A DNA stretch of 64,000 nucleotides from NCBI RefSeq assembly GCF_041435015.1, contig NZ_CP107989.1, forward strand, positions 1-64,000. The letters run 5' to 3'. This DNA is from Streptomyces canus. Its GTDB lineage: Bacteria > Actinomycetota > Actinomycetes > Streptomycetales > Streptomycetaceae. Every line of letters begins with the position of its first letter. The first letter of the stretch is position 1. Both the position numbers and the translations under genes were made by a program. This document shows, one piece after another, positions 2,297 through 35,947 of this stretch. The notes under the pieces are model-generated. The model made no database searches, was not told the origin of the DNA, and saw nothing but the letters and a program-made list of their open reading frames with translations.

Positions 2297-2352
2297 TGTG
2301 GCTTCCCCTGACCATCAGGGGTACTGACCGAGAACTGAACTGTTCCGGTTAA
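2242..2352 (+). pseudogene. C-terminal fragment of a GH43-like galactosidase
   Basis: In a frame different from the helicase, these bases encode HIYAGDRWNTADLGASKLMW followed by LPL and a short tail to a stop. The pattern GDRW-(N)-DLG-S-x-x-WLPL is how I remember the C-terminal blade of family 43 beta-galactosidases (exo-beta-1,3-galactanase type). Nothing upstream in this frame belongs to such an enzyme, so this is the tail of a lost gene joined to the truncated helicase. Family identity is from memory. Confidence 0.5.
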
Positions 2353-2358
2353 TGGAAC
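2342..2358. promoter_or_regulatory. Operator GTTCC-N7-GGAAC, site 1
   Basis: Exact palindrome with spacer GGTTAAT, 82 bases before the hydratase start at 2441. It is the first of ten exact or one-mismatch copies in the window; the proposed binder is the IclR regulator at 21476-22255. Confidence 0.7.
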
Positions 2359-2440
2359 ATGTTCTGCCGTGCTCGGGGTGTGTCGTCTATCCAAGGAGTG
2401 CCGCATTCGATTGCTGCACCCGCGCTTCCGGAGGTCGCCC

Positions 2441-3274
2441 ATGCCGTCCCATTCGTCCCGCACGCCATCCCCGGAGACGAAAAAAACGGCCCACGCCCTC
2501 TGGGAGGCTGAGCAGTCCGGTACGCCATGTCCGCCGGTACGCGACCAGTTGCCTGCCGGAGATGTGAGCAGCGCCTACGCCGTGCAGCGCCTCAACGTCG
2601 AGCGCAAGCTCGCTCAGGGCGGTCGCCTCGTCGGTCGCAAGATCGGTCTGACCTCGCCTGCGGTGCAGGCCCAACTCGGCGTAGATCAGCCGGACTTCGG
2701 CGCGCTGCTGGCGGACATGGCGGTACCCGACGGCGGGACGGTGCCCTACGGACGGCTGCTCCAGCCCAAGATCGAGGCAGAGGTCGCGCTCGTGCTGGCG
2801 GCCGGCCTGCCGCACCCCGACACGACGGTCGCCGACGTGCTGCGAGCAGTGGACTTCGCCCTCCCCGCCCTGGAGATCGTCGACAGCCGGATCGCGGACT
2901 GGGACATCAGTCTGATCGACACGGTCGCCGACAACGCCTCCTCCGGCCTGTTCGTCCTCGGCGCAACACCAGTGCCGCTGACCTCTGTCGATCTGCGCGC
3001 CGTGCGCATGACGCTCAGTCGCGACGGCGAGGAGGTCTCGCACGGCACCGGCGCCGACTGCCTCGACGGCCCCCTGAACGCGGCCGTGTGGCTCGCGTCG
3101 ACGCTGGCCGGGATGGGCGATCCGCTGCGCGCCGGCGACGTCGTGCTGACCGGCGCCCTCGGCCCCATGGCTGTCGCCACCCCCGGCAGCCGCTTCGAAG
3201 CGGTCATCTCCGGACTCGGCTCCGTACGCGTCGGCTTCGCACCCGCATCCGACCAGAAGGCAGGGCAGCAGTGA
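2441..3274 (+). CDS. mhpD: 2-keto-4-pentenoate hydratase
   Basis: 277 residues of the MhpD/BphH/DmpE hydratase family, which adds water to 2-hydroxypenta-2,4-dienoate to give 4-hydroxy-2-oxovalerate in meta-cleavage pathways. Family features include [20 protein letters not shown], the acidic metal-site segment [10 protein letters not shown], and [11 protein letters not shown] followed by [13 protein letters not shown] 2441 has GGAGGT five bases upstream; a longer frame from 2369 is less likely. The stop overlaps the next GTG start (GTGA at 3271), so it is translationally coupled to mhpF and mhpE. An IclR-type site precedes it. Confidence 0.93.
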
Positions 3275-4266
3275 CCACCACAACACCTTCTCCCCGTACC
3301 AAGGTGGCCGTCATCGGCTCGGGGAACATCGGCACCGACCTCATGATCAAGGTTCTGCGGCTATCGGAGAGCCTGGAGATCGCTGCCATGGTGGGCATCG
3401 ATCCGGATTCCGACGGTCTCGCCCGGGCGAAGCGCCTCAAGGTCGCCACCACGCACGAGGGCATCGACGGCCTGGTCGGCATGGACGAGTTCCAGGACGT
3501 GAGGATCGTCTTCGACGCCACCTCCGCCGGCGCTCACCGCCACCACGACGAGGTGCTGCGCGCGCACGGCAAGACGGTGGTCGACCTCACCCCCGCCGCA
3601 CTGGGACCGTACGTCGTCCCGCCGGTCAACGGCGCCGCGCATCTGGACGCGACGAACGTGAACATGGTCACCTGCGGCGGCCAGGCCACCATCCCGATCG
3701 TCGCCGCCGTGAACGCCGTCACGCCCGTGCACTACGGCGAGATCGTCGCCTCCATCTCGTCCCGCTCGGCCGGTCCGGGTACCCGGGCCAACATCGACGA
3801 GTTCACCGAGACCACGTCGTCTGCCATTGAGAAGGTGGGTGGCGCGGCGCGCGGCAAGGCGATCATCATCCTCAATCCGGCCGAACCGCCGCTGATCATG
3901 CGTGACACCGTGCACTGCCTGGTCTCCGACTGCGCCACGGAGGCCGTCACCGCGTCGATCGAAGAGATGGTCGGGCGGGTGCAGGCGTACGTGCCCGGTT
4001 ACCGCCTGAAGCAGAAGGTGCAGTTCGAGCGGGCGGCCGCTGACGACCCGCTGCACACCCTCGCCCGCGGCGGTGGCGACGCACTGAAGGTGTCCGTCTT
4101 CCTGGAGGTGGAGGGCGCCGCCCACTACCTGCCGGCCTACGCCGGCAACCTCGACATCATGACCTCGGCCGCGCTGCGCACCGCGGAGCGCATGGCCGGC
4201 CTCCCCCACTCTCGGCTTCGCTCGAGCGGGGGGACCCCCATCGCCCCGGAGGTGGCGTCCCGATGA
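3271..4266 (+). CDS. mhpF: Acetaldehyde dehydrogenase (acetylating)
   Basis: 331 residues; oxidises acetaldehyde with NAD+ and CoA to acetyl-CoA and forms a channelling complex with the aldolase encoded next. The nucleotide-binding motif [17 protein letters not shown] lies near residues 14-30, and the catalytic cysteine is C135 in [12 protein letters not shown]. The acyl-site segment [18 protein letters not shown] is present. GTG start overlaps the mhpD stop, and the stop overlaps the mhpE start (ATGA). The C-terminus is about 20 residues longer than usual because a short genomic repeat lies in frame inside the gene (4200-4240). Confidence 0.93.
4200..4240. repeat. Short Streptomyces-type palindromic repeat inside mhpF
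   Basis: A GC-rich inverted repeat of roughly 40 bases, running from ctcccccact through cgctcgagcg to gggaccccca, is inserted near the 3' end of mhpF. I recognise this as a repeat scattered between genes in many Streptomyces genomes. Here it is read in frame as [12 protein letters not shown], so it extends the protein without destroying it. Confidence 0.65.
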
Positions 4267-5279
4267 CCCGTCTGTACGTCCAGGACGTCACCCTGCGGGA
4301 CGGCATGCACGCCGTCCGCCACCGCTACACCGTCGACCAGGCCCGCACCATCGCCGCCGCCCTCGACACGGCCGGAGTGTCCGCCATCGAGATCGCCCAC
4401 GGCGACGGATTGTCCGGCTCCAGCATCAACTACGGCGTCGGCGCGCACACCGACTGGGAGTGGATCGAAGCGGTCCTGGACGCCGTACACCAGGCGACCC
4501 CCACCACTCTGCTGCTCCCCGGTATCGGCACCATCCACGATCTGAAGCAGGCCCACTCCCTCGGCATCCGCTCGGTGCGCATAGCCACGCACTGCACCGA
4601 GGCCGACATCTCCGCCCAGCACATCGCCGCCGCGCGCGAGTTGGGCATGGACGTCGCCGGGTTCCTGATGATGTCCCACATGGCCGAACCGGCCGAACTC
4701 GCCCGCCAGGCCAAGCTGATGGAGTCCTATGGCGCGCACTGCGTCTACGTAACCGACTCGGGGGGCCGCCTCACCATGGACGGCGTCCGCGACCGCTTCC
4801 GCGCCTATCGGGACGTCCTGGACCCTGCCACCGAACTGGGCATCCACGCCCACCACAACCTCGGCCTGGGCGTGGCCAACTCGGTCGTCGCCGTCGAGAA
4901 CGGCGTCACCCGCGTCGACGCCTCCCTCGCAGGGCAGGGCGCCGGGGCGGGCAACTGCCCCCTGGAAGCCTTCATCGCGGTCGCCGACCTGATGGGCTGG
5001 GAGCACGGCTGCGACCTGTTCCCCCTGATGGACGCCGCCGACGACATCGTACGACCGCTGCAGGACCGCGAGGTGCGGGTGGACCGCGAGACCCTCACTC
5101 TCGGCTACGCGGGCGTGTACTCGAGCTTCCTGCGGCACGCCGAGAAGGCCTCCGAGCGTTACGGCATCGACACCCGCGCCATTCTCGTCGAGGTCGGACG
5201 CCGCAAGATGGTCGGCGGCCAGGAGGACATGATCACCGACATCGCCCTCGACCTCGTGTCCCAGGCGTCGTCGGCCTGA
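4263..5279 (+). CDS. mhpE: 4-hydroxy-2-oxovalerate aldolase
   Basis: 338 residues; cleaves 4-hydroxy-2-oxovalerate to pyruvate and acetaldehyde. The DRE-type TIM barrel starts with [15 protein letters not shown] (catalytic Arg and metal Asp), and the metal-binding histidines are in [16 protein letters not shown] conserved [12 protein letters not shown] loop follows, and the C-terminal part corresponds to the DmpG dehydrogenase-contact domain. The start overlaps mhpF (ATGA). It is the last gene of the mhpDFE operon and is followed by a strong hairpin. Length is normal for the family. Confidence 0.95.
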
Positions 5280-5375
5280 CGACGGGGAGGGGTGGGGCGG
5301 TGGGTGCCTTCGCGGGACACGCTGAGTGATCTCGTGTCTTGTGCCTGCTCCTCATCGCTGTTGGCGCGGAAACCC

Positions 5376-5411
5376 GGCAGGGGCCTGATCGACCGGGATC
5401 AGGCCCCTGCC
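5376..5411. terminator. Bidirectional terminator between convergent genes
   Basis: Perfect 15-bp inverted repeat (5376-5390 with 5397-5411) around a six-base loop, in the gap between mhpE and the convergent minus-strand gene. Its GC-rich stem without a U-tract is common for actinobacterial terminators. Confidence 0.8.
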
Positions 5412-5455
5412 CTGGTACTGGCTCCGGTGCCGGCCGTCGGCCCCTGATGCCTGCT

Positions 5456-6106
5456 TCAGTAGGCGACCGTGAATCGGTCGCGGATGTGTGAGGGACTCTC
5501 CAGCTCGTCGACGATCGCGATGGCGTAGTCGTCGAACGAGATCCCGGGCAGCGTCCCGTCCGGGGTTTGGAGCAGTTCCCGACCACCACGACGGAAACGG
5601 CCGGTGCGCTCACCCGGGCCGATTCCGGGCGGCGGAGCGAGGTAGATCCAGTCCAGGTCGTCGACCTGCTCCAGCAGCTTCCAGAAGTGCGCCGCGGCGG
5701 CGGCCGATTTCGCGAATTCCGCGGGGAAGACGTCCGTGTCCATGACGCGTGTCTTCGTGCCCGGCACGAGCAGGGTTCCGCTTCCGCCCGTGACGAAGTA
5801 GAGCGGCGCCTTCGATTCCCTGACGGACGAGATCAGCCGGGCGTGGTCTGTTTTGGCGTACTGGATCGCCGTGACGACCACGTCGTGGCCCGTGATGACG
5901 GGCACGAGCTGGGCGGAGTCGTTGGCGTCGGCCTCGACGGTCCGTACCGACGGGTGGGATGCGACGAGCTCCGGATGGGTTGTCACGGCGGTGACCCGGT
6001 GTCCCCGTGCGATGAGCTCGGCGATCAGGGGGCGGCCGACGCTGCCGGTGGCACCCACCACCGCGACGTTCAACGACGGACCGGACGTGCTGTGTGATTC
6101 AGCCAT
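5456..6106 (-). CDS. NAD(P)-binding reductase, NmrA/YwnB-like
   Basis: 216 residues with an N-terminal Rossmann motif VAVVGATGSVGRPLIAELIARG and no conserved SDR Tyr-x3-Lys in the usual place. This matches the NmrA-like atypical SDR group, whose members act as NAD(P)H-dependent reductases or redox sensors. Substrate is unknown. ATG 6106 overlaps the end of a broken quinone oxidoreductase on the same strand, so the two were probably once an operon. The role in the catabolic cluster is unclear; it may be a passenger. Confidence 0.75.
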   Translation of the reverse strand: MAESHSTSGPSLNVAVVGATGSVGRPLIAELIARGHRVTAVTTHPELVASHPSVRTVEADANDSAQLVPVITGHDVVVTAIQYAKTDHARLISSVRESKAPLYFVTGGSGTLLVPGTKTRVMDTDVFPAEFAKSAAAAAHFWKLLEQVDDLDWIYLAPPPGIGPGERTGRFRRGGRELLQTPDGTLPGISFDDYAIAIVDELESPSHIRDRFTVAY

Positions 6107-6762
6107 GGACTTTGCTCACTTTCATCACTGCGACCATCGGCGCTCCGTAGAGCATGTCCACCCACCAGATCGAATCCGCCCTGGCTCGCCTTCCGGAGCG
6201 CGGCGGGACAGTCGTCGTCCAGCCGGACGGCCTCGTCCGCTCCCCGCTCCTTGAGGGCGTCGAGCACGGCGGGGTTGCGGCCCGCCACCACCCGTCCGGC
6301 ACCGAGGACTTTGGCCGCCTGGATCGCAATCCGACCGACGCTGCCCGTGGCCCCGAGGACCAGAACCTGCTCACCCTGGCGGAGACCGGCCTTCCGGGTC
6401 AGGGACAGCCGCGCGGAGATTCCGGCCACGCCGATCGCGAGCGCGGCACCGTCCGCCAGCGCGTCCGGGATCTCCTGCACCGAGTCCGCCGAGGTGACCG
6501 CCCGCTCAGCGAACGAGCCATGTGGCAGGTGCGTGCGTCCGAAGTCGACGCGAGTTCCGTCACCGACGGTGCCGACGCCCTCGGAGCCTGACACATAGGG
6601 AACCGGCGGAGGTTGGTTGACTCCGGCCGCGACCACCAAGTCATGCGGGTTGACCCCGGCGGCCGTGACGGTCACAACCGTGCCGTGCTCGGTCGGGCGG
6701 GGTTCGTCGACCTCCTGCAGCGCAGGGGCCCCTCTGGCTCTTGTAATGACAGCTGCTCGCAT
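6099..6762 (-). pseudogene. Truncated, frameshifted quinone oxidoreductase (MDR family)
   Basis: The start MRAAVITRARGAPALQEVDE (6762), the region around GVNPHDLVVAAG, and the cofactor motif LVLGATGSVGRIAIQAAKVLG identify a zinc-independent medium-chain dehydrogenase. After GGFDLV near 6165 one extra G shifts the frame; corrected reading gives VDMLYGAPMVAVMKVSK, the expected continuation. Even so, the protein stops near residue 220, where family members run to about 320. It is therefore both frameshifted and C-terminally truncated, ending in the start of the next gene. An operator-like site lies 42 bases upstream of its start. Confidence 0.75.
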
Positions 6763-6804
6763 GACGGCGACGCTAGGCCGGACGGCCAGAGCTGCCGAGC
6801 GCCG

Positions 6805-6821
6805 GTTTCGGCTGCTGGAAC
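6805..6821. promoter_or_regulatory. Operator-like site 2 (GTTTC-N7-GGAAC)
   Basis: One mismatch from the cluster palindrome. It lies 42 bases before the start of the minus-strand quinone oxidoreductase relic at 6762. Confidence 0.5.
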
Positions 6822-6965
6822 CCCGGAGGCGGCACGATGACGCCCGGAGCCCGTGGCGTGGCCGGGGCGGCGCCGGTGCGCTCGGTCGAGACGTGCTCGA
6901 CATGTCCAGGGGGATCGGATTCAGCTTTGTTTCTGCCGCGTGGACGCCAACGCGCGAGTGACGGG

Positions 6966-6982
6966 GTTCCGGGGGGTGGAAC
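6966..6982. promoter_or_regulatory. Operator GTTCC-N7-GGAAC, site 3
   Basis: Exact palindrome with spacer GGGGGGT, 71 bases before the hydrolase start at 7054. Together with site 2 it fills the divergent promoter region. Confidence 0.7.
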
Positions 6983-7053
6983 AACCTCCTGCCGTCACAA
7001 CGGTGGCGTGTGAATCATGGCGGTCTGCAGCACATGTCAAGTGAGGAGTGAGC

Positions 7054-7905
7054 ATGGCCGACGCACCGATCACCACGACCAAGGTCGCGGTCGGAGAGTA
7101 CGAATTCCAGCTGAACGCTTCCGGTGACAAGTCCAAGCCGGCCCTCCTGTTCCTGCACGGTTCCGGACCGGGCGCGACCGGCCTCTCGAACTGGGAAGCG
7201 GTGCTGAAGGATCTCGGGAACGACTACTACTGCCTCGCGCCGGACGTCATCGGCTTCGGCGACTCCAGCCACCCCGAGCCGCCGCCGCAGGGCATGGCGG
7301 CCTTCACCCAGCTCCGAGTCGACACCCTGATCGGGCTGCTGGACGAGCTGGGACTGGAGAAGGCGGTCCTCGTCGGCAACTCCATGGGCGGCATATGGTC
7401 GCTCGGTGCGACGCTGCAGGCGCCGGAGCGGGTCGAGAAGATCGTTCTCATGGGTTCCGGCGGTTCGCCGATTCCGCCCGGTCCCGCGATCCCGTCGCTG
7501 GCCCTGTTCTACGACAATCCGACGACTGAGGCCATGCAGCACCTGCTGGAACAGTTCGTCTACGACCCGCAGCTGTTCGGCGGGGACCTGCGAAAGATCG
7601 CGGAGCAGCGGATCCCGCGCGCCGTGCGGCCGGATGTGGAACGCTCCCACCGGGCCACCTTCGTAGACGTCCTCGACCGGCCGTGGGCGCTGACGCCCGA
7701 GGACGCGGCCAAGATCGAGCAGGATGTTCTCGTCATCCACGGGCGTGAGGACCGGTTCGTTGTCTTCGACGGCGGCAAGTGGTTCTTCGACCACCTCCCG
7801 AACGTGCGGCTGTACGGCATCGGGAAGTGCGGCCACTGGACGCAGATCGAGCAGCACGACCGTTTCGTGGCCGCCGTGCGCGGCTTCGTCAGCGGGAGCC
7901 TGTGA
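7054..7905 (+). CDS. Meta-cleavage-product hydrolase (alpha/beta fold)
   Basis: 283 residues resembling MhpC/BphD/TodF C-C bond hydrolases, which split the semialdehyde or ketone product of extradiol cleavage into 2-hydroxypenta-2,4-dienoate and an acid. The oxyanion motif is LHGSGPGATGLSNW. The triad is S110 in GNSMGG, D233 in HGREDRF and H261 in KCGHW. The start was chosen at ATG 7054 because GAGGAG lies just upstream. The next gene starts inside its stop codon, indicating a two-gene operon. It supplies the substrate for MhpD. Confidence 0.9.
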   Translation: MADAPITTTKVAVGEYEFQLNASGDKSKPALLFLHGSGPGATGLSNWEAVLKDLGNDYYCLAPDVIGFGDSSHPEPPPQGMAAFTQLRVDTLIGLLDELGLEKAVLVGNSMGGIWSLGATLQAPERVEKIVLMGSGGSPIPPGPAIPSLALFYDNPTTEAMQHLLEQFVYDPQLFGGDLRKIAEQRIPRAVRPDVERSHRATFVDVLDRPWALTPEDAAKIEQDVLVIHGREDRFVVFDGGKWFFDHLPNVRLYGIGKCGHWTQIEQHDRFVAAVRGFVSGSL

Positions 7906-8435
7906 CAGTGCCGCTGTACGAGCTCGACGGGATCGCACCCGCCGTCCACCCGGACGCGTTCGTCGCGCCCACCGTCGTACTGATCGGCGACGTTGTCATC
8001 GAGGCGGGCGCGTCGGTCTGGTACAACGCGGTCCTGCGGGGCGACTACTCCCGCATCACAGTGCGCCGAGGAGCCAATGTGCAGGACGGCAGCGTGCTGC
8101 ATGGACCACCCGATCTGCCCACGGAGATCGGTCCCGGCGCGACCGTGGGGCATCTGTGCGTCGTGCACGGCGCGGTCATCGGGGAAGAGGCACTGATCGG
8201 GAACGGCAGCACCGTGCTCGACGGTGCGCGGGTCGGGGCGCGGTCGCTCGTCGCCGCGCATTCGCTGGTACCGGCCGGTTCGGACTTCCCGGCGGAGGCC
8301 CTGGTGGCGGGTATTCCGGCGGTGGTCAAGCGGTCCATCGTCGGAACGACCGCCGAGCAGTGGATACTGAACAACCCAGGTGTGTACGAGGTGTTGGCGC
8401 GAAGACACGCCGCGGGAATCAAACCAGTTCGGTGA
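7902..8435 (+). CDS. Gamma-class carbonic anhydrase / PaaY-like hexapeptide protein
   Basis: 177 residues of left-handed beta-helix hexapeptide repeats. The segment SVWYNAVLRGDYSRITVRRG with NVQDGSVLHG carries Arg and Asp residues typical of the gamma-carbonic anhydrase fold, and a histidine pair occurs in GHLCVVHGA. PaaY-type members of this family are thioesterases associated with aromatic catabolism, so hydrolysis of dead-end CoA esters or bicarbonate supply are both possible. GTG start overlaps the hydrolase stop (GTGA). Confidence 0.85.
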   Translation: MTVPLYELDGIAPAVHPDAFVAPTVVLIGDVVIEAGASVWYNAVLRGDYSRITVRRGANVQDGSVLHGPPDLPTEIGPGATVGHLCVVHGAVIGEEALIGNGSTVLDGARVGARSLVAAHSLVPAGSDFPAEALVAGIPAVVKRSIVGTTAEQWILNNPGVYEVLARRHAAGIKPVR

Positions 8436-8519
8436 GCATGGGCGGGAGCTGCCCCGGGATCGGCCCGATCAAGGCCGGTTCCGGGGCACTGCCGTTATCG
8501 GTGGCGTTCATGGCGATGA

Positions 8520-8536
8520 GTTCCAGTGACCGGCAC
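8520..8536. promoter_or_regulatory. Operator-like site 4 (GTTCC-N7-GGCAC)
   Basis: One mismatch from the palindrome, 41 bases before the ferredoxin reductase start. Sites 2, 8 and 10 have the same distance of 41-42 bases. Confidence 0.55.
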
Positions 8537-8577
8537 TCGACATTGTGGCCGCTGCCGGTAATTCCGACAGTGCATGC

Positions 8578-9786
8578 ATGACTGTTCTGATCATCGGCGC
8601 CTCGGTGGCGGGCGTGCGTACGGCGCAGGCTCTCCGGCAGGGGGGCTTCCAGGAGCGCATCACCCTCGTCGGCGAGGAGCGGCACCAGCCGTACGACAAG
8701 CCGGCCCTGTCCAAGGAGGTGCTGGCCCCCGACCGTGCGGGCGAGCCTCCCGTCCTGCTGACGAAACAGGAGGCCGACGAACGCGGCATCGAGCTGATGC
8801 TCGGCGTGAAGGCGGTCGGTCTCGACCTCACCGAGCGGCGCGTGGCGACCGACGGGGGCGAGCGGTTGCCGTTCGACCGGCTGGTCCTCGCCACGGGGGT
8901 CACCCCGCGCACACTGCCGGGTACCGGCGACCTCTCGGGCGTCCACACACTTCGGACGGCCGACGACGCGTGGGCGCTGCGAGCCGAACTCGACCGTTCG
9001 CCCAGGGTGGTGGTCATCGGGGCTGGCTTCATCGGCGCCGAGTTCGCTGCAGCGGCCCGGGCGCGCGGGCTGGACGTCTGTGTCGTGGAAGCGCAGCCGA
9101 TCCCCATGGCCCATCTGTTCGGTGAGCGGGTAGGTCGGATGCTGGCGGGCATTCACGCCATGAACGGCGTCGCGGTCGAGGCCGGCGTCGGATTCAGCAG
9201 CTTCACCGACGACGGACGGGGCCGGGTAACCGGTGTCGTCCTGGCCGACGGCCGCACCCTCCCTGCCGACCTGGTCGTCGTCGGCATCGGCGCACGTCCC
9301 GCCACGGACTGGCTGGAGTCCTCCGGGCTCGATCTCGCCAACGGGGTGGCCTGCGACAGCCGGCTGCGTGTCACGGGCGTGGGCGTGGGCGCGGTCTACG
9401 CCGCAGGTGACATCGCTCACCGGTATCACCCGATGTGCGGCAAGTCGCTGCGCATCGAGCACTGGACCAATGCCGGGGAGCACGGGGAGATCGTCGCGGC
9501 CGACATCCTCGGGCAGCAGGCGCCACGGGCCCAGGTGCCCTACGTCTGGTCCGACCAGTACGGTCGGCGCATCCAGATCGTCGGCAGGCCCGCTGAGGGC
9601 CGGCTGAGCGCGCTGCGAGGCGGCATCGAAGACAGCGGGATGACCGCCGTCTACGCCGATGAGGCGGGGCGGGCCGTCGGCGCCCTGGTCGTCGACGATC
9701 CGCGCACCTTCATGGCCTGCCGCAAGGCGGTCGCCTCCGGGGCGCAGGTCAGTGACCTCGGCCTGGGCCTGCTGGAAGCCGCGTGA
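8578..9786 (+). CDS. FAD-dependent ferredoxin reductase of a dioxygenase system
   Basis: 402 residues. FAD motif VLIIGASVAGVRTAQALR is at the N-terminus, the NAD(P)H motif VVVIGAGFIGAEFAAAARARG is central, and the second FAD motif is VYAAGDIAHRY. This is the BphA4/CamA-type layout that passes electrons from NADH to a Rieske ferredoxin. The partner ferredoxin is at 19691-20005 and the oxygenase at 14629 onward. The start was placed at ATG 8578, where the first Rossmann strand begins; no clear ribosome binding site is present. Confidence 0.9.
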   Translation: MTVLIIGASVAGVRTAQALRQGGFQERITLVGEERHQPYDKPALSKEVLAPDRAGEPPVLLTKQEADERGIELMLGVKAVGLDLTERRVATDGGERLPFDRLVLATGVTPRTLPGTGDLSGVHTLRTADDAWALRAELDRSPRVVVIGAGFIGAEFAAAARARGLDVCVVEAQPIPMAHLFGERVGRMLAGIHAMNGVAVEAGVGFSSFTDDGRGRVTGVVLADGRTLPADLVVVGIGARPATDWLESSGLDLANGVACDSRLRVTGVGVGAVYAAGDIAHRYHPMCGKSLRIEHWTNAGEHGEIVAADILGQQAPRAQVPYVWSDQYGRRIQIVGRPAEGRLSALRGGIEDSGMTAVYADEAGRAVGALVVDDPRTFMACRKAVASGAQVSDLGLGLLEAA

Positions 9787-9814
9787 GTAGTACGGCCCAC
9801 GAGGCCGCCGGGCT

Positions 9815-9831
9815 GTTCCAGCCGACGGAAC
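9815..9831. promoter_or_regulatory. Operator GTTCC-N7-GGAAC, site 5
   Basis: Exact palindrome with spacer AGCCGAC, 64 bases upstream of the CoA-transferase gene that opens the 9896-14515 unit. Confidence 0.7.
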
Positions 9832-9895
9832 CACCGCTGTCCGGTGGCCGCGGGCCGCGCGAAGGTGCAGGACACCGCTGACGGGAGGGTGAAAG

Positions 9896-12199
9896 ATGCT
9901 TCACGATGTCACCGTGGTCGAGGCCGGGAGCCGGGTCTCGACCATGTACTGCGGCAGGTTGCTAGCCGATGTCGGCGCCCGCGTGGTACGCCTTGAGCCG
10001 CGTGCCGGCGAACGGCCGACGGCGCAGGACGCCGGATACGAGGCCTACGTGAGTCATCTGCACCAGGGCAAGCGCGTGGTGCGGTGCGACTCCGATGAAC
10101 TCGCAGACGCCCGGACCGCCGTCGCCCGGCTGGTGCCGGAACTCGCGACCGGCCCGGCCGTCGTGATCTGCGACGACGACCTGCCGGGATTCCGGGCGCT
10201 GGCGGAAGCCCTGCGCAGGGAGAATCCGCGGCTGGTCGTGGTCACCGTTTCCGACTACGGGCTCGACGGCCCGTTCGCCAAGTTGCCGGCGACCGAGTTC
10301 ACACTCCAGGCCGAGGCCGGCCTCACCGTGCTCCACCCCAGAGGGGACCGTCCGCCGGTCGCCAGCGGCGTGGAGTTTGGCGAGCTCACGGCCGGAGCGT
10401 GCGCGGCCGTGGGTGCCGTGTCAGCGCTGTTGAGCACCGAGGCCGGGGCGGCCTCGGCGATCGACGTCGACGTCTCGCGTTTCGAGGCGCTGGTCGGACT
10501 GCTCCAGTTCCCCTGGCTGTTCTCCCAGCTCTCTCCCCACACGCGCTACCCGATCCCGCAGAACCCCGTTCCCGGTGTCGAACGCGCGAAGGACGGCTGG
10601 GTGTGCGTCGTCGCCGTCACGGACGCGCAGTGGAAGGCGTTCAAGGAGATGGCAAGGGTGCCCGAACTGGACGACTCCCGGTTCGACATGGTCTCGGACC
10701 GGCTGTACAACGGCACCGAGATCACCCCGTTGGTCCGGCGGTTCACCGAGCGCCACACGGTCGAGGAACTGACCGAGCTCGGTGTGCTCCACCGTGTGCC
10801 CGTGGTCCCGCTGACCTCGCCCGACACGGTCGCCGAGCTGGCGCCGTACGCCGAGCGGAACTCCTTCGTACGGCATCCGGAAGCCGGCTTCCTACAGCCT
10901 GCACCGCCGTTCCGGATCTCGCGCCCGAGCGTGCGGACTCCCGCTGCGGCCACTGCCGAGGCGGACCCCGCGCAGCCTCTGAAGGGCCTGCGCGTCGTGG
11001 AGTTCGGCACCTTCCAGGCGGGGCCCCTGGCCACGGCCCATCTCGCCTCCCTGGGCGCCGAGGTGATCAAGGTGGAGGCGGTGAACCGCCCCGACGCCAT
11101 GCGCTTCTCGGGCAATCCCATGACCGTGAACCGCTCGTGGGAGCGCGCGGGCCCCTTCCTCGGCCCCAACATCGGCAAGCGGGAGGTCACACTGGACCTC
11201 TCCGACGCCAAGGGCCTGGACCTGGCAAAGCGGTTGATCGCCACCGCGCACGTGGTGCTGGAGAACTACACGCCTCGCGTGCTTGACGACCGGGGACTGG
11301 ACTTCGACGGCATGCGCGAGGTCAACCCGGACCTCATCGTCGTCCGCATGCCCGCATGGGGGCTCACGGGCAGCTGGCATAACCGCCCGGGGTTCACCTA
11401 CACCGCCGAAGCGGCCGCAGGGGTCACCCAGATGACCGGGTACGAGGACGGCGAACCGGTTGTCACCGGCACGGTCACCGACCCGTTCTCCGCGCACCTG
11501 GCGTCGTTGGTACTGCTGACGGCGATCCGGCGGCGCCGCCGTACCGGCGAGGCCGTGTGCGCGGAGCTGGCGCTGGGCGATGTCGCCATACAGCTGACCG
11601 CCCGCCCGGTGATCGAAGCGTCGGCCACTGGAGAGCCGCGCACACGTGCCGGTAACAGATCCCCGCTCGCGATCCCGCAGGGGATGTACCCGTGCGCCGA
11701 CGACGACTGGATCGCGATCTCCGTCACGACCGACGCGCAGTGGACGGCCCTGTGCCGTGTCCTGGGCCGCGACGACTGGGCCGCCGACGCGGAGTTCGCG
11801 ACGGCCGAAGGACGCCGCGAACGGCGTGCGCAGCTCGACGACGGCCTTGCCCACGCGTGTGCCGGGGAGCCCGCCGAAAAGATCGTGGCGGCCCTTCGTT
11901 CCGCGGGGGTGCCCGCGGCCGTCATGGCCGTCGGTCTGGATCTCGCCGACCACCCTCAACTCGTTCATCGGCAGCGGCCGTTCCCGGTGCACCATGCGGT
12001 CGCCGGTACGGTGCGACACCTCGCACCGGCCATGCGCTTCTCCCACGCCCCCCGTCCGCCGGCCGTGGGCCCCGCCCCGCTGTTCGGCCAGGACAACGAG
12101 GCCGTGCTGACCGAACTCGGGTGCACCGAGGCGGAGATACGGGAGCTCGCCGACAAGCGTCTGGTGGGCGACAGCCCGTACGGAATCGCGTACAAATGA
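9896..12199 (+). CDS. Fused double-domain class III CoA-transferase (CaiB/BaiF)
   Basis: 767 residues made of two CaiB-type halves: one starting at LHDVTVVEAGSRVSTMYCGR, the second at LKGLRVVEFGTFQAGPLATA (near residue 361). Class III transferases move CoA between carboxylic acids through an aspartyl intermediate. In the second half a plausible catalytic Asp is in TGTVTDPFSAHLA; at the corresponding place in the first half I read SGVEFGELTAG, with Glu and no Asp. The halves may therefore be unequal, with one catalytic. GGGAGGG precedes the ATG. The stop overlaps the ligase start (ATGA), so both CoA-activating enzymes are co-translated. Substrate unknown. Confidence 0.85.
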   Translation: MLHDVTVVEAGSRVSTMYCGRLLADVGARVVRLEPRAGERPTAQDAGYEAYVSHLHQGKRVVRCDSDELADARTAVARLVPELATGPAVVICDDDLPGFRALAEALRRENPRLVVVTVSDYGLDGPFAKLPATEFTLQAEAGLTVLHPRGDRPPVASGVEFGELTAGACAAVGAVSALLSTEAGAASAIDVDVSRFEALVGLLQFPWLFSQLSPHTRYPIPQNPVPGVERAKDGWVCVVAVTDAQWKAFKEMARVPELDDSRFDMVSDRLYNGTEITPLVRRFTERHTVEELTELGVLHRVPVVPLTSPDTVAELAPYAERNSFVRHPEAGFLQPAPPFRISRPSVRTPAAATAEADPAQPLKGLRVVEFGTFQAGPLATAHLASLGAEVIKVEAVNRPDAMRFSGNPMTVNRSWERAGPFLGPNIGKREVTLDLSDAKGLDLAKRLIATAHVVLENYTPRVLDDRGLDFDGMREVNPDLIVVRMPAWGLTGSWHNRPGFTYTAEAAAGVTQMTGYEDGEPVVTGTVTDPFSAHLASLVLLTAIRRRRRTGEAVCAELALGDVAIQLTARPVIEASATGEPRTRAGNRSPLAIPQGMYPCADDDWIAISVTTDAQWTALCRVLGRDDWAADAEFATAEGRRERRAQLDDGLAHACAGEPAEKIVAALRSAGVPAAVMAVGLDLADHPQLVHRQRPFPVHHAVAGTVRHLAPAMRFSHAPRPPAVGPAPLFGQDNEAVLTELGCTEAEIRELADKRLVGDSPYGIAYK

Positions 12200-13725
12200 C
12201 GCACATTCCCGAAGATACGGCCGCACTTGCGGCGATCTGCCGCACGTGGGCGACACGCACACCCGAAGCTGCCTGTCTCACCTACGACGGTGTGACCCGG
12301 AACTGGCGCGAGGTGTACGAACGCAGTTGCCGTGTCGCACAGGGGCTCGCCGGTTCCGCGCCGGGTGCGAGGGAGCGGGTGCTCTACCTGGGCCGCAACA
12401 GGCCCGAGTTCTTCGAGGTCCTGTTCGGTGCGTCGATGGCGGGTTGGGTGAGCGTCGCCGCGAACTGGCGGCTCGCCCCGTCGGAGTTGCTCTGCGTGGT
12501 CAACAACGCGCGCCCCAGAGTGCTGTTCGTCTCGGAGGATCTCGTCGGCAAGCTCACCCCTGTCCGGGACGAGCTTACGACGGTGGAAACCGTCGTGGTC
12601 ATCGGGGACGAGACCGACGACTACGAGAAATGGCTTCTCTGCCGGGACCCGCAGGAGCCGCCTGCCGTGACCACGGACTCCGATCCCGCGTTCATGATGT
12701 ACACCTCCGGCACGACCGGAGTGCCCAAGGCCGCGCTGTTCGACGGCCGGGCCGTGCGCGCGACGTTCAGCGCCGCCGGCGTCATGGGCGTCACCCAAAA
12801 ATCCGTTCTGCTGGCGGCGCTTCCCCTCTTCCACGCCGCAGGGCTGAACACAGCGATCGCGGCACTGGCCGTCGGGGCCCACTGCGTGCTGTCCGCCGAT
12901 GCCAAACCCCGCTCGGTGCTGGAAGTCGTGGAACGCCACCGGGTGACCACGACCATGGTCGTGCCCGCGGTTCTGCAGGCCCTCCAGGACGAGGACGTCG
13001 ACCGCTACGACCTCTCCGCCCTCGACACCATCGCCTATGCCGGCTCTCCCATGGACCCCGACCTGCTGCGGACCTGCCTGCGCCGCTTCCGCTGCAAGTT
13101 CCTCCAGTTCTACGGCTCGACGGAGACCATCGGCATCACGGTGCTGCCTCCCGAGGACCACGATCTGGCCGACACCGACGGCAGACTGGGCTCGGCCGGG
13201 CTCCCACTTCCCGAAGTGACGGTACGGGTCGTCGATCCCCTGACGGAGAAGGACGTCGCCGAAGGCGTGGTGGGCGAGGTCTGGGCGAAGACACCGACGG
13301 CGATGTCCGCGTACTGGGAGGCCCCGGAGGAGACGGCACACGTTCTCGCCCCGGACGCATTCCTGCGCACCGGCGACGCCGGGTTCCTGCGCGGTGGCTA
13401 TCTCCATCTGTGCGACCGGCTCAAGGACGTCATCATCACGGGCGGCGAGAACGTGTACCCGACCGAGGTGGAGCACGTCCTCTCGACTCACCCGGGGATC
13501 GCCGAGGTCGCGGTGATCGGGGCCCCCTCCCGCCGGTGGGGCGAGACGGTGCGGGCCGTCGTCGTACGGGCGCCCGCACAGCCCTCGCTGACAGAGGGCG
13601 AGGTCATTTCGTACGCCAAGGAATACCTCGCGGGCTACAAGAGCCCGACCGTGGTGGATTTCGTGGCGCAGCTCCCGAGGAACGCCTCGGGAAAAGTACT
13701 CAAGAGCAAGTTGCGTGAGCCATAG
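12196..13725 (+). CDS. Acyl-CoA ligase (AMP-forming)
   Basis: 509-residue ANL-superfamily ligase that activates a carboxylic acid to its CoA thioester via an acyl-adenylate. Motifs are the phosphate loop MYTSGTTGVPKAAL, FYGSTE, the hinge region LRTGDAGFLRGG, GGENVYPTEVE, and the C-terminal lysine in LPRNASGKVLKSKL. Start ATG 12196 overlaps the upstream stop. It may be redundant with, or sequential to, the CoA-transferase: ligase for entry, transferase for recycling CoA. Aromatic or side-chain acid as substrate is inference from context. Confidence 0.92.
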   Translation: MTHIPEDTAALAAICRTWATRTPEAACLTYDGVTRNWREVYERSCRVAQGLAGSAPGARERVLYLGRNRPEFFEVLFGASMAGWVSVAANWRLAPSELLCVVNNARPRVLFVSEDLVGKLTPVRDELTTVETVVVIGDETDDYEKWLLCRDPQEPPAVTTDSDPAFMMYTSGTTGVPKAALFDGRAVRATFSAAGVMGVTQKSVLLAALPLFHAAGLNTAIAALAVGAHCVLSADAKPRSVLEVVERHRVTTTMVVPAVLQALQDEDVDRYDLSALDTIAYAGSPMDPDLLRTCLRRFRCKFLQFYGSTETIGITVLPPEDHDLADTDGRLGSAGLPLPEVTVRVVDPLTEKDVAEGVVGEVWAKTPTAMSAYWEAPEETAHVLAPDAFLRTGDAGFLRGGYLHLCDRLKDVIITGGENVYPTEVEHVLSTHPGIAEVAVIGAPSRRWGETVRAVVVRAPAQPSLTEGEVISYAKEYLAGYKSPTVVDFVAQLPRNASGKVLKSKLREP

Positions 13726-13753
13726 AACGTGGCCGCCATGGAGGTACATGCGC

Positions 13754-14515
13754 ATGGACATCGCATTTCCGCGGATCGAGCCGAGTGTTGCGGAGGACTC
13801 GTTCAGGCATGGATCAGGTAGGTCGCTGCCGGTGGCCCGGATCGAGCTCGGCGGTGTCCCGAGAGGCGCGGCGATCGTGCTCTGCGACGCCGGCGCCCTG
13901 GAACGGGACGCCGCCGGGTTCATGAACGGACTGGCCGAGCACGGATACGAGTCCGTCGCCGTCGACCTGTCGCCCACCGGTGGCGACCCGACCGGCACGA
14001 CCGACCGGGATCTGGTGAGCGACGTCGCCGTGCTGGTGGGGCGGTTGGGTGAACGCGGCTGGTCGCCGGCGCAGGTGGGCCTCGTCGGCTACGGCTTCGG
14101 GGGCCGGACGGCACTCTTGGCCACCGCCGAGTTCGCACTCGGCGCGGCGGTGAGCATCGCCCCGTCCGGAGTGGCGGACGCATGGTCCGACGCCCTGCCG
14201 CCGCTGATCCAAGTGGCCCGGCACGTCCGGACGCCGTGGCTCGGACTGTTCGGTCAGCAGGACCCCGGTGCCCCTGCGGACGCCCTGGCCAGGCTGGGCT
14301 CGTACCTGGGCGGCTCGCCGGCCCACACGGAAGTGGTCACCTATCCGGGCGTCGCCCGAGATTTCTATCGCGACGCCCGCGAGACCCTGGCGCACGTGGC
14401 CTCTTTCGACGCGTGGCAGCGAACCATCGAGTGGCTCGATCGGCGCGTGGTGCCGCGGCCCACGCCATTGGCCGCGGAATGGCAAAGACGTGTCGCAAGC
14501 GCGGCCCGCGCGTAA
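13754..14515 (+). CDS. Dienelactone-hydrolase-like protein with degenerate active site
   Basis: 253 residues with alpha/beta-hydrolase architecture of the dienelactone hydrolase type. The nucleophile elbow reads VGYGFGGRTAL, so the usual Cys (or Ser) is Gly114. The usual His-containing segment near the C-terminus reads YPGVARDFYRD with no His, while the acid position GQQDPGAP keeps an Asp. An ordinary hydrolase mechanism therefore looks impossible; a structural, binding or regulatory role is likelier. The start was set at ATG 13754 with GAGG nine bases upstream; GTG 13715 and ATG 13748 are alternatives. It follows the ligase closely and ends the operon. Confidence 0.75.
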   Translation: MDIAFPRIEPSVAEDSFRHGSGRSLPVARIELGGVPRGAAIVLCDAGALERDAAGFMNGLAEHGYESVAVDLSPTGGDPTGTTDRDLVSDVAVLVGRLGERGWSPAQVGLVGYGFGGRTALLATAEFALGAAVSIAPSGVADAWSDALPPLIQVARHVRTPWLGLFGQQDPGAPADALARLGSYLGGSPAHTEVVTYPGVARDFYRDARETLAHVASFDAWQRTIEWLDRRVVPRPTPLAAEWQRRVASAARA

Positions 14516-14546
14516 TTCCTTTCACTTCTGTGAATTCGACGCCCCG

Positions 14547-14563
14547 GTTCCAGCCGCCGGAAC
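14547..14563. promoter_or_regulatory. Operator GTTCC-N7-GGAAC, site 6
   Basis: Exact palindrome with spacer AGCCGCC, extended by one G/C pair (GGTTCC...GGAACC). It lies 65 bases before the Rieske oxygenase start and should control the six-gene oxygenase operon. Confidence 0.72.
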
Positions 14564-14628
14564 CGGGGGGAGCGCCACATGCAGCTCCACGGCACGGTGC
14601 CATTGGGACAGGAAAGGACGGACTACAG

Positions 14629-15948
14629 GTGTCTGAATACATCGAGGTCGACCAGGAAATCCCCCGCTTCAGGGTGAACCGGAAGGTCATGACGGATCCG
14701 GCTGTGTTCGCCGTGGAGCGCGAGCGCATCTTCGACCACAGCTGGCTCTACATCGGTCACGAGACCGAACTCGCCAAGCCCAACGACTACGTCACCCGAA
14801 CCGTGGCCGGGCGGCCGCTGATCCTGGCCCGGGACGCCAAGGGGAAGGTGAGGGTCTGGGTCAACTCCTGCCCCCACCGCGGTGCGATGCTGTGCCGTGA
14901 GCCGAAGGGCAACGCTCGCTTCATGACCTGCTTCTACCACGGCTGGAGCTTCAACAACTCGGGCGAGGTCGTCTCGATCCCCGACGACGCAGGCTACGGG
15001 GCCGGCTTCGAGCGACCGGGGCTGGCGGCTCCCGCGAAGGTCGGCTCCTACCGCGGTTTCGTCTTCGTCAGCTTCGATCCGGACATCGTCGATCTCCCCA
15101 CCTACCTGGCGGGCGCCAAGGAGTACCTGGACCTGGTGTCCGACCAGTCCGAGGTCGGCATGAGGGTCCTGCCGGGCACGCACGAGTACTCGGTGAAGGC
15201 CAACTGGAAGCTCCTGACGGAGAACAGTTACGACGGCTACCACCTCGTCTCCACCCATCAACGCTATCTGGAGATGATCACCGCCGCCCACGGCAAGGCC
15301 GACATCTCCTTCGCCTCGAACTCCATAGCCGTCAACCTGGGCGGTGGCCACGCCGTCATGGCCGGCACTCCCGCGAGCGGCGCCGCGCTGGGACGGCCGC
15401 TGTCCGAGGAGGCCAAACACGAGAAGGCCGAACACTTCGAGCGGCTCCGTCAGACGCACGGCGACGCGTGGGTGGATCGCATGGGCGGCACCCGCAACCT
15501 GGTGATCTTCCCCAACCTGGTAGTCATCGACCTGGTCATGGGCGTGCTGATCCGCAGGATCGAGCCCGTCACGCCCGACTACATGGAAGTCAGTGCCTGG
15601 CAGCTGGTGCCACCGGAGGAGGGCGAGGAACTGCACAGGCAGCGCCTGGACAACTTCCTCACCTTCTGGGGCCCGGGCGGACTCGCCTCGCCCGACGACG
15701 TGGAGGCGCTGGAGACGTGCCAGCGGTCCTACGCGGCCCAGCGGGAACTGCCCTGGTCCGACATCTCCCGTGGGATGCACACGCCTCACAAGGGGATGAA
15801 CGGCGAATACCAGATGCGCACGTGGTGGCGCCGCTGGCACGAGCTGGTCACGGGGGAGGCACTCCCCGAAGAACCGCAGGCCCCGCTTCCGGACTTCTTC
15901 GCCGGACAGCGGCAGCGGTCGGCCTCCGCGACCGCAGAGGCCAAATAG
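14629..15948 (+). CDS. Rieske aromatic-ring-hydroxylating dioxygenase, alpha subunit
   Basis: 439 residues; catalytic subunit that adds O2 to an aromatic ring to give a cis-dihydrodiol. Rieske cluster ligands are C81-x-H83 (CPHRG) and C101-x2-H104 (CFYHGW). The mononuclear iron site is in LTENSYDGYHLVSTH. The C-terminal catalytic domain is of normal length. The start is GTG 14629 with GGAAAGGA ten bases upstream. It heads an operon with two acyl-CoA dehydrogenases, the beta subunit, an SDR and a ferredoxin. The unusual placing of acyl-CoA dehydrogenases between alpha and beta subunits suggests the substrate may be a CoA ester or side-chain-modified acid, which is inference. Confidence 0.93.
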   Translation: MSEYIEVDQEIPRFRVNRKVMTDPAVFAVERERIFDHSWLYIGHETELAKPNDYVTRTVAGRPLILARDAKGKVRVWVNSCPHRGAMLCREPKGNARFMTCFYHGWSFNNSGEVVSIPDDAGYGAGFERPGLAAPAKVGSYRGFVFVSFDPDIVDLPTYLAGAKEYLDLVSDQSEVGMRVLPGTHEYSVKANWKLLTENSYDGYHLVSTHQRYLEMITAAHGKADISFASNSIAVNLGGGHAVMAGTPASGAALGRPLSEEAKHEKAEHFERLRQTHGDAWVDRMGGTRNLVIFPNLVVIDLVMGVLIRRIEPVTPDYMEVSAWQLVPPEEGEELHRQRLDNFLTFWGPGGLASPDDVEALETCQRSYAAQRELPWSDISRGMHTPHKGMNGEYQMRTWWRRWHELVTGEALPEEPQAPLPDFFAGQRQRSASATAEAK

Positions 15949-15977
15949 CCCCTCCAACCGAAAGCAGAGAGTCGATC

Positions 15978-22291: not shown

Positions 22292-23356
22292 TCACTGGTA
22301 CAGCGCGAAGACCTTGTTGGAGTTGAGGATCTCCGTCTGGACGAAGTCGCTCCACTGCAGTTCGAGACCGAGTTCCGACATCGCACCCAGCAGACAGAAC
22401 CAGTTGAGCATCTCGTGCTGGCCGGCGTCGACCACCTCTCGCGTGGTCACCTTCTGCCAGGTGTCGTAGTCACCCGCGACGAGGGCGTCGTAGAGCCTGA
22501 TATCGGCGTCGGAGTCCGGGCGCAGGTGCCAGTCCTTGTCGTTGAGGAAGGCATGGGACCAGCTCGCCGACGCGACCAGCGCCACACGCTTGTCGCCGGC
22601 CGCCACCGAACGCGCCACCGCCCGGCCCAGCTCGAAGCAGCGCACCGGCGACGGACCCGGCGGGTCGAGCTGCTCACCGGCCTTGATGTCGGCGAACTTG
22701 GCCATGCCGCCCTGCCGGGCGATGACGTGCTCGCCGTAACAGTTCACCGCGATGGGCACGATCGGGTACGGGAATTCCTTTCCCACGTGCTCGTAGTCGA
22801 GGAAGATCTGCGTGTTGGCGAACGCGTGCGGGAAATGGACGCCCTTGCGATGCTCGTAGGAGTAGGCGACGTCCACCCCTGAGGTGAGCACGTCCGTCGC
22901 GAGCTGCTTGGCGAAGGCCGGCAGGCCACGCATCCGGTAGGTGGTGTCGTTGGGCAGGCCCCAGGCGTTCGGCACCTTGATCATGTCCAGTACGGCGAAT
23001 GCCTCGACCTCGGTGTCGTCGTAGGCCAACACGCAGAATGAGGGGATGACTTCCTCGCGGAAGTTCTCGTACTGGTCGTCGCCCCAGACCACGACGACAT
23101 CCGGACGGAACTCGTCGAGTGCCTCACGGCAGCGGGTCAGACCGCTGAGCAACCGGGCCCGGTGGGCGGCGGCAGCGGCGACACCCTGGTCGTCTCCCCA
23201 TTCACGCTGCGCGAGCTCGGGCCAGTTGCGGACGTCCTTCCGGTCGGCGGGGATGTCGGGATCCTTCAGGGTGCTCTTGAGCAGATTCGCCATATGTGTG
23301 TCGGCACCCGCCAACATCGGATAGTGCGTGATGCCGAGACCAAGCACCTCAGCCAT
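22292..23356 (-). CDS. Class III extradiol ring-cleavage dioxygenase (LigB-type)
   Basis: 354 residues; Fe(II) enzyme that cleaves a catechol next to the diol. Candidate metal and catalytic residues are His in GLGITHYPMLAG, the acidic segment VVVVWGDDQYENF, and His in ASASWSHAFLND and DAGQHEMLNWF. It is longer than MhpB (about 314) and belongs to the broad LigB superfamily. The start at 23356 has GGGAGG upstream. Site 8 lies 115 bases before it. It is the only ring-cleavage enzyme seen in the window. Confidence 0.88.
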   Translation of the reverse strand: MAEVLGLGITHYPMLAGADTHMANLLKSTLKDPDIPADRKDVRNWPELAQREWGDDQGVAAAAAHRARLLSGLTRCREALDEFRPDVVVVWGDDQYENFREEVIPSFCVLAYDDTEVEAFAVLDMIKVPNAWGLPNDTTYRMRGLPAFAKQLATDVLTSGVDVAYSYEHRKGVHFPHAFANTQIFLDYEHVGKEFPYPIVPIAVNCYGEHVIARQGGMAKFADIKAGEQLDPPGPSPVRCFELGRAVARSVAAGDKRVALVASASWSHAFLNDKDWHLRPDSDADIRLYDALVAGDYDTWQKVTTREVVDAGQHEMLNWFCLLGAMSELGLELQWSDFVQTEILNSNKVFALYQ

Positions 23357-23471: not shown

Positions 23472-23488
23472 GTTCTACTGCCCGGAAC
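23472..23488. promoter_or_regulatory. Operator-like site 8 (GTTCT-N7-GGAAC)
   Basis: Same core and same spacer (ACTGCCC) as site 10 in front of the intact amidohydrolase. It lies between the extradiol dioxygenase (minus) and an amidohydrolase relic (plus, start 41 bases away). Confidence 0.6.
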
Positions 23489-23529: not shown

Positions 23530-23718
23530 ATGCCTGGTCTTCCGGCCGCGCACGGTCATCCGGCCACCGGACGCAGGGAGGCCGGAAGGTGGTGGGCACG
23601 GAAATCTACGGCCCGGCGTAGTCGCTACCGTCGCCGCAGCGGCCGACCAGCATGTCCTCGACGAGTCGCAGGCGGACCGCGTCCTCGGACGAACGAGCTT
23701 GATTTCCTGGGCCTGTGA
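23530..23718 (+). pseudogene. Internally deleted amidohydrolase relic
   Basis: It begins MPGLPAAHGHP, matching MPDLPAAHGHP of the intact amidohydrolase at 35990. Its last codons read VLDESQADRVLG in one frame, then NELDFLGL and a stop after a one-base shift, matching VLSESETARVLG and NALEFLGL at the intact gene's end. About 280 codons in between are gone. The upstream DNA including the operator is also shared with the 35.9-kb locus. This is direct evidence of a second, decayed paralogue. Confidence 0.8.
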
Positions 23719-25891: not shown

Positions 25892-25908
25892 GTTCCATCG
25901 AACGGAAC
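25892..25908. promoter_or_regulatory. Operator-like GTTCC-N7-GGAAC, site 9 (orphan)
   Basis: Exact match to the palindrome with spacer ATCGAAC, but no catabolic gene follows. It may be left over from a deleted unit or be chance. Confidence 0.4.
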
Positions 25909-35008: not shown

Positions 35009-35054
35009 GGACAGCTGTCACGCGGTCCGGCACGGCGACACCGTCCGGACCGCG

Positions 35055-35560
35055 ATGTCGGCCGACCTCGACAACGCCCAGGGCGCTGGGGCGACAGAGA
35101 TTGTCAGTGCCCGGCGCCACGGTTTTCGAGTCACTGACCGAAACGACGGGATCGTCGTGGACAAAGTGACCAAGGCCGCCGACTCCTCGCAGGTCACCGC
35201 CGCGACCAACCCTGTCGAGACAGGGACGATCAGCCGGGACGGCACCACGGTCATCGCCACCGTCAACTACAAGGTGGCGCACGACAAGCTCACCGACGCC
35301 ACCAGGAACACGCTCCAGGAGGCAGCCCAGCAGGGCCGGGACGGGGGGCCTGACGGTGGAGATCGGTGGCGATGCGCTGCACGAGTCGGCGTCCGACAAG
35401 GCGGTGGCGGTCAGCATCGCCATCGACGCGCTGGTGCTCCTGATAACGTCCGGTTCACTGGCCGCGGCCGGCATGCGGTCAACGCGGCCGTCGGCGTGGG
35501 ACTGCCTCGGATCAGGGACGGCCCTTCAGCGCCTGGAGGCCGCGTCACAGGAGCGCGCTG
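35055..35560 (+). pseudogene. Fragment of an MMPL-family transporter
   Basis: Reads VVDKVTKAADSSQVTAATNP, ISRDGTTVIATVNYKVAHDK, then after a frameshift LTVEIGGDALHESASDKA with the hydrophobic IAIDALVLLITSGSLAAAGM, typical of an MMPL periplasmic loop followed by a membrane helix. Both ends are missing and at least one further frame change follows. Confidence 0.65.
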
Positions 35561-35930
35561 ATGCCGACGATGTGTCTGACCTGCAGCACCACACTGTGGC
35601 GGCCACGCGAAGACCGGGCACGGCGACGGAGTGTCTCGCCGCCATCCGTCACGGCTAATCCTGCCGATCATCGACAGGAGATGAGCGGCCCCTCGCTCGG
35701 CGACGACACGGCCTGAACCGGATTGCCACCGTCGAGTCCCAGCCTCCCCTTGGTCCATGTCAGCTCCGTCGCCGTGACCGCCGGTCTCTGCGTTGTCCGG
35801 TCGAGGAGCCCGGGTACGCCAGAGCACATCTCTGTCTGGCGACGGCGCTGGTTGCAACAGGTGGAGACTTCCTTTGTACCCGGCGTCGGGTGGCCGGACG
35901 AGTGCGTTCGGGACCCCGCGGCGACGGGGA
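35561..35930. other. Gene-free stretch before the amidohydrolase
   Basis: About 370 bases with no frame of normal codon bias and no domain I recognise. It ends at operator-like site 10. Confidence 0.5.
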
Positions 35931-35947
35931 GTTCTACTGCCCGGAAC
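35931..35947. promoter_or_regulatory. Operator-like site 10 (GTTCT-N7-GGAAC)
   Basis: Identical to site 8 (spacer ACTGCCC) and 42 bases before the amidohydrolase start. It links this distant unit to the main cluster. Confidence 0.62.

Follow-up and report, generated by a model that had tools for sequence, protein, structure and literature searches.

Transcription factors of the IclR family include repressors, activators, and dual regulators, and as a rule they regulate themselves together with one or two adjacent operons. This picture comes from a survey of 181 groups, with regulons that comprise between 1 and 55 gene groups (Suvorova and Gelfand, 2021; PMC8222616). Group-1 motifs of the family resemble each other, and one subgroup, GTT-11-AAC, is described by the 17-bp consensus GTTYCRYW3RYGRAAC; many gene groups of aromatic metabolism are under-represented in it (Suvorova and Gelfand, 2021). 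Here, we describe a predicted regulon of this kind in Streptomyces canus. The stretch analysed (the window) comprises 64,000 nucleotides (nt) and forms the left end of the 10,394,168-base contig NZ_CP107989.1, in a genome of 10.7 Mb in all. In the window, the palindrome GTTCC-R-N5-Y-GGAAC recurs upstream of aromatic-degradation genes and is the predicted operator of an IclR-family regulator encoded at 21476-22255, which would activate about eleven promoters together. We assign this reading a probability of about 0.77.

The palindrome has the half-sites and the spacing of the GTT-11-AAC subgroup, with 17 bp and GTTYC-R ... Y-GRAAC ends, but the inner YW3R positions of that subgroup are not kept in the sites found here (Suvorova and Gelfand, 2021). 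GenR of Corynebacterium glutamicum, also an IclR-type regulator of aromatic catabolism, has the operator ATTCC-N7(5)-GGAAT (Table 1 in Suvorova and Gelfand, 2021). Likened by motif, the two share a TTCC-N7-GGAA core; however, the outer pair is G/C here and A/T in GenR, the pathways differ, and none of the ten sites described below is a GenR-type operator. MhpR, PcaU, and PobR are likewise IclR-family regulators of aromatic catabolism (Table 1 in Suvorova and Gelfand, 2021). The window protein falls outside the PcaR/PcaU/PobR subfamily: it passes no NCBIfam cut-off, and its best model, that of PcaR/PcaU/PobR (TIGR02431), scores 116.5 bits against a curated cut-off of 284.75. Compared with the usual scope of an IclR protein, about eleven promoters is a large set (Suvorova and Gelfand, 2021). 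The regulator and operator are of a known kind, while the regulon itself is new; in literature searches, mostly without full text, no description of the regulator, the cluster, or the promoter geometry was recognised.

Distribution of the palindrome

Six exact copies of GTTCC-N7-GGAAC are present in the window (2342, 6966, 9815, 14547, 21361, and 25892), against 0.11 (sd 0.31) expected from dinucleotide shuffles of the window, and none of 100 shuffles contained six or more. Up to one mismatch is found at 12 places against 2.38 expected, including four near cluster genes (6805, 8520, 23472, and 35931). A preliminary description of this DNA had named these ten positions, and a pattern search recovers all of them as six exact and four one-mismatch sites; it had rightly placed the exact sites beyond chance, while its guess of about 0.06 expected gives way to 0.11. 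With the other spacers from 3 to 11, GTTCC and GGAAC form one pair in total (spacer 3, at 57635). By eye, all ten sites have R at position 6 and Y at position 12, and all start with G and finish with C. Among the six exact sites, the called coding frames contain only 21361, which lies upstream of the inferred iclR start.

The two remaining one-mismatch places were rejected as operators, 18402 because it lies inside the frame of the Rieske beta subunit and 60910 because of its position, distant from the cluster. Both also have R6 and Y12 by eye, so this feature alone does not discriminate. The exact palindrome at 25892..25908 was likewise set aside. None of the gene starts used lies within 250 nt of it, it shows no conservation, and neither side has a -10 box at offset 30/31; it sits in a segment missing at the corresponding place from genome G210, which carries the same cluster, and from Streptomyces ureilyticus (L016). 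It is probably not part of the regulon and may be a chance palindrome. The other nine sites stand in front of nearly every catabolic unit, as the preliminary description put it.

Genome-wide, 25 exact sites occur, against 6 for the pattern read backwards. They consist of the six in the window, four copies near the right end that belong to a terminal repeat, and 15 elsewhere. A crude coding test, which asks for frames of 80 or more codons with high third-position GC, places 13 of these 15 within coding frames and two outside. This speaks against equal frequency of the motif at unrelated promoters, which the preliminary description had named as a refuting condition. R6 together with Y12 was seen by eye in 5 of the 15, versus all six in the window (Fisher 0.012). 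Of the 20 exact places in G210, 5 belong to the cluster; the remaining 15 stand against 11 for the pattern read backwards.

The regulator and its relatives

The regulator (259 aa) combines an N-terminal HTH_IclR domain (PF09339, 64.8 bits) with a C-terminal IclR_C domain (PF01614, 97.4 bits), both above the cut-off. Its gene, iclR, was found once in the genome, and a first genome search with the protein returned 45 candidate places, most of them unscored. Homologues occur in six plasmid records, from Rhodococcus (60-61% identical) and Pseudonocardia (53%). Seven of seven aligned homologues, the window protein included, share an invariant GLPKSTVHRL in the helix-turn-helix, which we take to be the recognition helix.

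Stretches of 40.8 kb from three of the six plasmid records were compared: L023 and L024 from Rhodococcus and L025 from Pseudonocardia. Their clusters overlap the window cluster in content without being identical to it (FAD monooxygenase, amidohydrolase, extradiol dioxygenase, CoA transferase, acyl-CoA dehydrogenases, and Rieske oxygenase), and mhpDFE is present in the Pseudonocardia cluster. Sites with at most one mismatch number 10 in L023, 11 in L024, and 6 in L025, and an annotated gene start lies within 200 nt of 9/10, 11/11, and 5/6 of them, respectively. All three clusters have a site before iclR, with one mismatch in both Rhodococcus stretches and exact in Pseudonocardia. A blind dyad scan of all 1024 five-base half-sites with spacers 0-12 ranks GTTCC-N7-GGAAC first in L023 (10 intergenic, 0 coding) and in L024 (11 and 0), where intergenic refers to positions not covered by the plasmid collection's incomplete gene table. 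Binding by this IclR protein, proposed from the sequence in the preliminary description, is favoured by the exact or one-mismatch site ahead of iclR in all four clusters, by the invariant GLPKSTVHRL, and by the fit to the published GTT-11-AAC motif.

The regulator is rare among the genomes sampled. Surveys of overlapping genome samples, each counting the own genome, gave matches in 2/297 (E 1e-60), 2/392 (1e-80), 1/394 (1e-80), and 1/248 (1e-70), all near-identical copies, and S. ureilyticus (L016) encodes a near-identical iclR. The cluster (window 2241 to about 38100) is about 98-99% identical where compared among G210, G622, and L016. This identity in few genomes, with iclR missing from nearly all of those sampled, suggests recent horizontal spread. 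At 1e-52, 2/394 genomes matched, the second being G765, with two 45-46% homologues on one contig. A 39-kb stretch of G765 holds six sites with at most one mismatch; of four checked against frames, two are coding and two are not, one of the latter lying about 220 nt upstream of a homologue's match, and the -10 box described below is found in 3/12 directions.

Promoter geometry

For the analysis of promoters, sites were aligned on the palindrome, each direction with a gene start within 200 nt was counted as gene-facing, and a -10 box was defined as NANNNT. At offset 30/31, gene-facing directions carry the box in 8/11 cases in the window (null mean 0.62), 7/13 in L023 (1.09), 8/17 in L024 (1.39), and 5/6 in L025 (0.25). 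This offset is the best in all four sets, tied with its neighbour in the window. Widening the limit to 250 nt gives 8/13 in the window and 5/8 in L025. In directions without a gene start, the box is found in 0/9 cases in the window and 0/6 in L025. The offset is thus preferred in all sets, and the contrast between gene-facing and away directions holds in the window and Pseudonocardia, not in Rhodococcus.

A profile of 46 hand-chosen directions, 12 of them from L023, 16 from L024, and 7 from L025, shows T at offset 7 in 26/46, and the best TTGACA match begins at this offset, so that 17 nt separate it from the -10. The hand-chosen set lacks L023 9395-minus and L024 8502-minus, whose starts lie within 200 nt, and includes L025 10170-plus at 230 nt; with it, the box counts are 7/12, 8/16, and 5/7 for L023, L024, and L025. 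If +1 lies near offset 42, the operator spans about -58 to -42. The arrangement of an activator-dependent promoter, with the operator just upstream of the -35 and at a preferred spacing to the -10, is therefore found here, more weakly in Rhodococcus. An operator directly upstream of the -35 is in an activator position. The geometry hence points to activation, which the preliminary description did not contain, and activation rather than repression is the best reading of it.

The preliminary description had also noticed start codons 41-42 bases after four sites, and these are confirmed: 8520 (ATG 8578), 23472 (ATG 23530), 35931 (ATG 35990), and, on the minus strand, 6805 (ATG 6762). With the ATG at offset 42 (8578 and 23530) or 43 (6762 and 35990), the predicted +1 coincides with the start codon in all four cases, which suggests that these four messages are probably leaderless.

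Proposed mechanism and alternative explanations

In the proposed mechanism, the IclR-family regulator would bind GTTCC-R-N5-Y-GGAAC and so cover about -58 to -42, immediately ahead of a weak -35; the -10 box mostly follows 30-31 nt after the palindrome. Once a pathway compound is bound, the regulator would recruit RNA polymerase, and about eleven promoters served by nine sites would be switched on together. The predicted targets are mhpDFE, the hydrolase, the ferredoxin reductase, the CoA-transferase/ligase genes, the Rieske operon, the FAD monooxygenase, iclR, the LigB dioxygenase, the amidohydrolase-ETF (electron transfer flavoprotein) unit, and two relics. At iclR's own promoter, the operator may repress instead. 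Regulators of the MhpR, PcaU, and PobR type activate.

Several observations weigh against this mechanism. The box is missing in 3 of the 11 gene-facing directions of the window (2342 plus, 21361 plus, which faces iclR, and 23472 minus). Facing iclR, it is absent in three of four clusters (the window, L023, and L024) and present in L025. The aligned -10 and -35 are both weak, and in Rhodococcus the box also appears in directions without a gene start (2/7 in L023 and 2/5 in L024, 4/12 together). L023 and L024 are related plasmids, hence not independent, and in the first 20.8 kb of L025, the part that was scanned, the palindrome stands outside the top eight of the blind scan.

The same IclR protein could instead bind the sites and mainly repress, with relief by an inducer. 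E. coli IclR is a repressor of this type, relieved by its inducer. The missing -10 in front of iclR in three of four clusters would fit a different, possibly autorepressing arrangement there, and repressors and dual regulators stand beside activators in the family (Suvorova and Gelfand, 2021). At most promoters, however, the inferred -35, -10, and +1 all lie clear of the operator, which keeps a preferred distance upstream of a weak -35 in three genera. Repression does not need such an arrangement, and predominant repression is therefore judged unlikely. It is considerably less probable still that another regulator, encoded elsewhere, binds the palindrome and the IclR gene is a bystander. An AraC-type gene is present at 30473, the 45 candidate places for the IclR protein make other IclR-like genes likely, and group-1 IclR motifs are alike (Suvorova and Gelfand, 2021). 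Against this, the site and iclR co-occur in three genera, each time with a site ahead of iclR; G210 and L016 both lack, at that place, the segment holding the AraC gene; and the motif is of the IclR type (Suvorova and Gelfand, 2021).

Chance palindromes have a background to draw on, with 2.38 one-mismatch sites expected per window, the 15 versus 11 matches in G210 indicating that most non-cluster matches arise by chance, and 25892 as a possible case within the window itself. As an account of the whole set, chance is contradicted by the shuffles, the genome-wide placement, the conservation across genera, and the promoter geometry, and we give it next to no weight; this does not extend to any single one-mismatch site.

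An aromatic-degradation island near a Streptomyces-type chromosome end, with relatives on Rhodococcus and Pseudonocardia plasmids, is thus provided with a candidate regulator, its operator, and a geometry for its promoters, and nine operator fragments are ready for testing. The spacing rule, with NANNNT placed 30-31 nt after the palindrome, could be of use for predicting activated IclR targets in further actinobacteria. More tentatively, and with some doubt on our part, the operator, a 29-nt gap, and the -10 may constitute a portable promoter module over three genera, drawing about eleven promoters, several of them leaderless, into the regulon of one IclR activator; a second half-pathway at the opposite chromosome end, controlled in trans, would be among its targets.

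Gene content and architecture of the cluster

Operator 1 (GTTCCGGTTAATGGAAC; 2342..2358, plus strand, exact) precedes the mhpD-mhpF-mhpE unit (2441..5279, plus), whose products score above the cut-offs of NCBIfam NF008461, TIGR03215, and TIGR03217. The unit consists of mhpD (2441-3274, ATG 2441 with GGAGG ahead of the start), the acetaldehyde dehydrogenase gene mhpF (from about 3295 to 4266), and the aldolase gene mhpE (4263-5279). At offset 30, operator 1 is followed by TATCCA, which fails NANNNT by its last base. Operator 2 (6805..6821, minus, one mismatch) has TAGCGT at offset 30 and precedes a minus-strand relic starting at 6762; "quinone oxidoreductase relic" is a label of the preliminary description only. 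About 1.1 kb of the window, 5691-6797, is absent from the same place in G210 (L026). Operator 3 (6966..6982, plus, exact; AATCAT at offset 31) precedes an alpha/beta hydrolase (7054..7905, plus; Pfam Abhydrolase_1), a meta-cleavage-product hydrolase of HsaD/BphD-like type whose top NCBIfam model, HsaD, stays under its cut-off. Operator 4 (8520..8536, plus, one mismatch; GACAGT at offset 30) stands before an HcaD-like ferredoxin--NAD reductase (8578..9786, plus), under the equivalog cut-off.

Downstream of operator 5 (9815..9831, plus, exact; GAAGGT at offset 30), profiles match a CoA-transferase III (9896-12199), an AMP-binding CoA ligase in the open reading frame 11692-13725, and a dienelactone-hydrolase-like protein (13715-14515), all on the plus strand and presumably one transcription unit (9896..14515). 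Operator 6 (14547..14563, plus, exact; CACGGT at offset 30) heads the Rieske operon (14629..19694, plus), with profile matches to the Rieske oxygenase alpha subunit, two acyl-CoA dehydrogenases, the Rieske beta subunit, and a short-chain dehydrogenase/reductase (SDR). Operator 7 (21361..21377, exact) lies between an MhpA-like FAD monooxygenase (20084..21268, minus; Pfam FAD_binding_3, MhpA-type NCBIfam models under cut-off) and iclR (21476..22255, plus), with TAGCGT at offset 30 towards the monooxygenase. Operator 8 (23472..23488, one mismatch) separates a LigB-type extradiol dioxygenase (22292..23356, minus; Pfam LigB) from a 5' relic of an amidohydrolase gene including its start codon (23530..23565, plus), recognised by eye from the sequence at 35990 onward. 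CAGGAT stands at offset 30 towards the relic, and TAGACC, failing NANNNT by its last base, towards LigB. Operator 10 (35931..35947, plus, one mismatch; GAACAT at offset 30) precedes genes with profile matches to an amidohydrolase, ETF beta, and ETF alpha (35990..38862, plus). Operators 8 and 10 sit in a 45-nt repeat, 87% identical, with the second copy at 35919-35963; this is a duplicated promoter with one copy heading a relic.

Acyl-CoA dehydrogenases have a natural partner in ETF. At the corresponding place, G210 lacks most of window 24.2-35.9 kb, which separates the LigB gene from the amidohydrolase-ETF unit, and because of this the ETF unit belongs with the rest of the cluster, which supports the union of the 2.4-22 kb genes with the 36-39 kb unit made in the preliminary description.

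The left copy of the terminal inverted repeat (1..16549) recurs inverted at 10377603-10394154, with 99.958% identity over 16552 columns, 4 mismatches, and 2 gaps. Operators 1-6, four exact and two with one mismatch, are thereby present twice, while iclR is not, so that one regulator would serve both chromosome ends. On its inner side, the repeat stops within the frame of one of the acyl-CoA dehydrogenases in the Rieske operon; the right chromosome end therefore has half the pathway, without iclR.

Within the interval before the ETF unit, S. ureilyticus L016 has no counterpart of 25493-33283 at that place, and G210 lacks still more. Two transposases, a siderophore-interacting protein, and an AraC regulator (30473-31228) are encoded in this segment. 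IclR, called the only regulator in the cluster by the preliminary description, is the only one among the genes identified at 2.4-24 kb. The segment also contains a FAD-monooxygenase-like frame that matches only the later part of its profile, and 261-nt inverted repeats at 26063 and 32410. Further along the window, at 46036-47703, there is a DDE transposase element, and an identical 1.67 kb copy occurs near the right chromosome end (L027 7649-9316).

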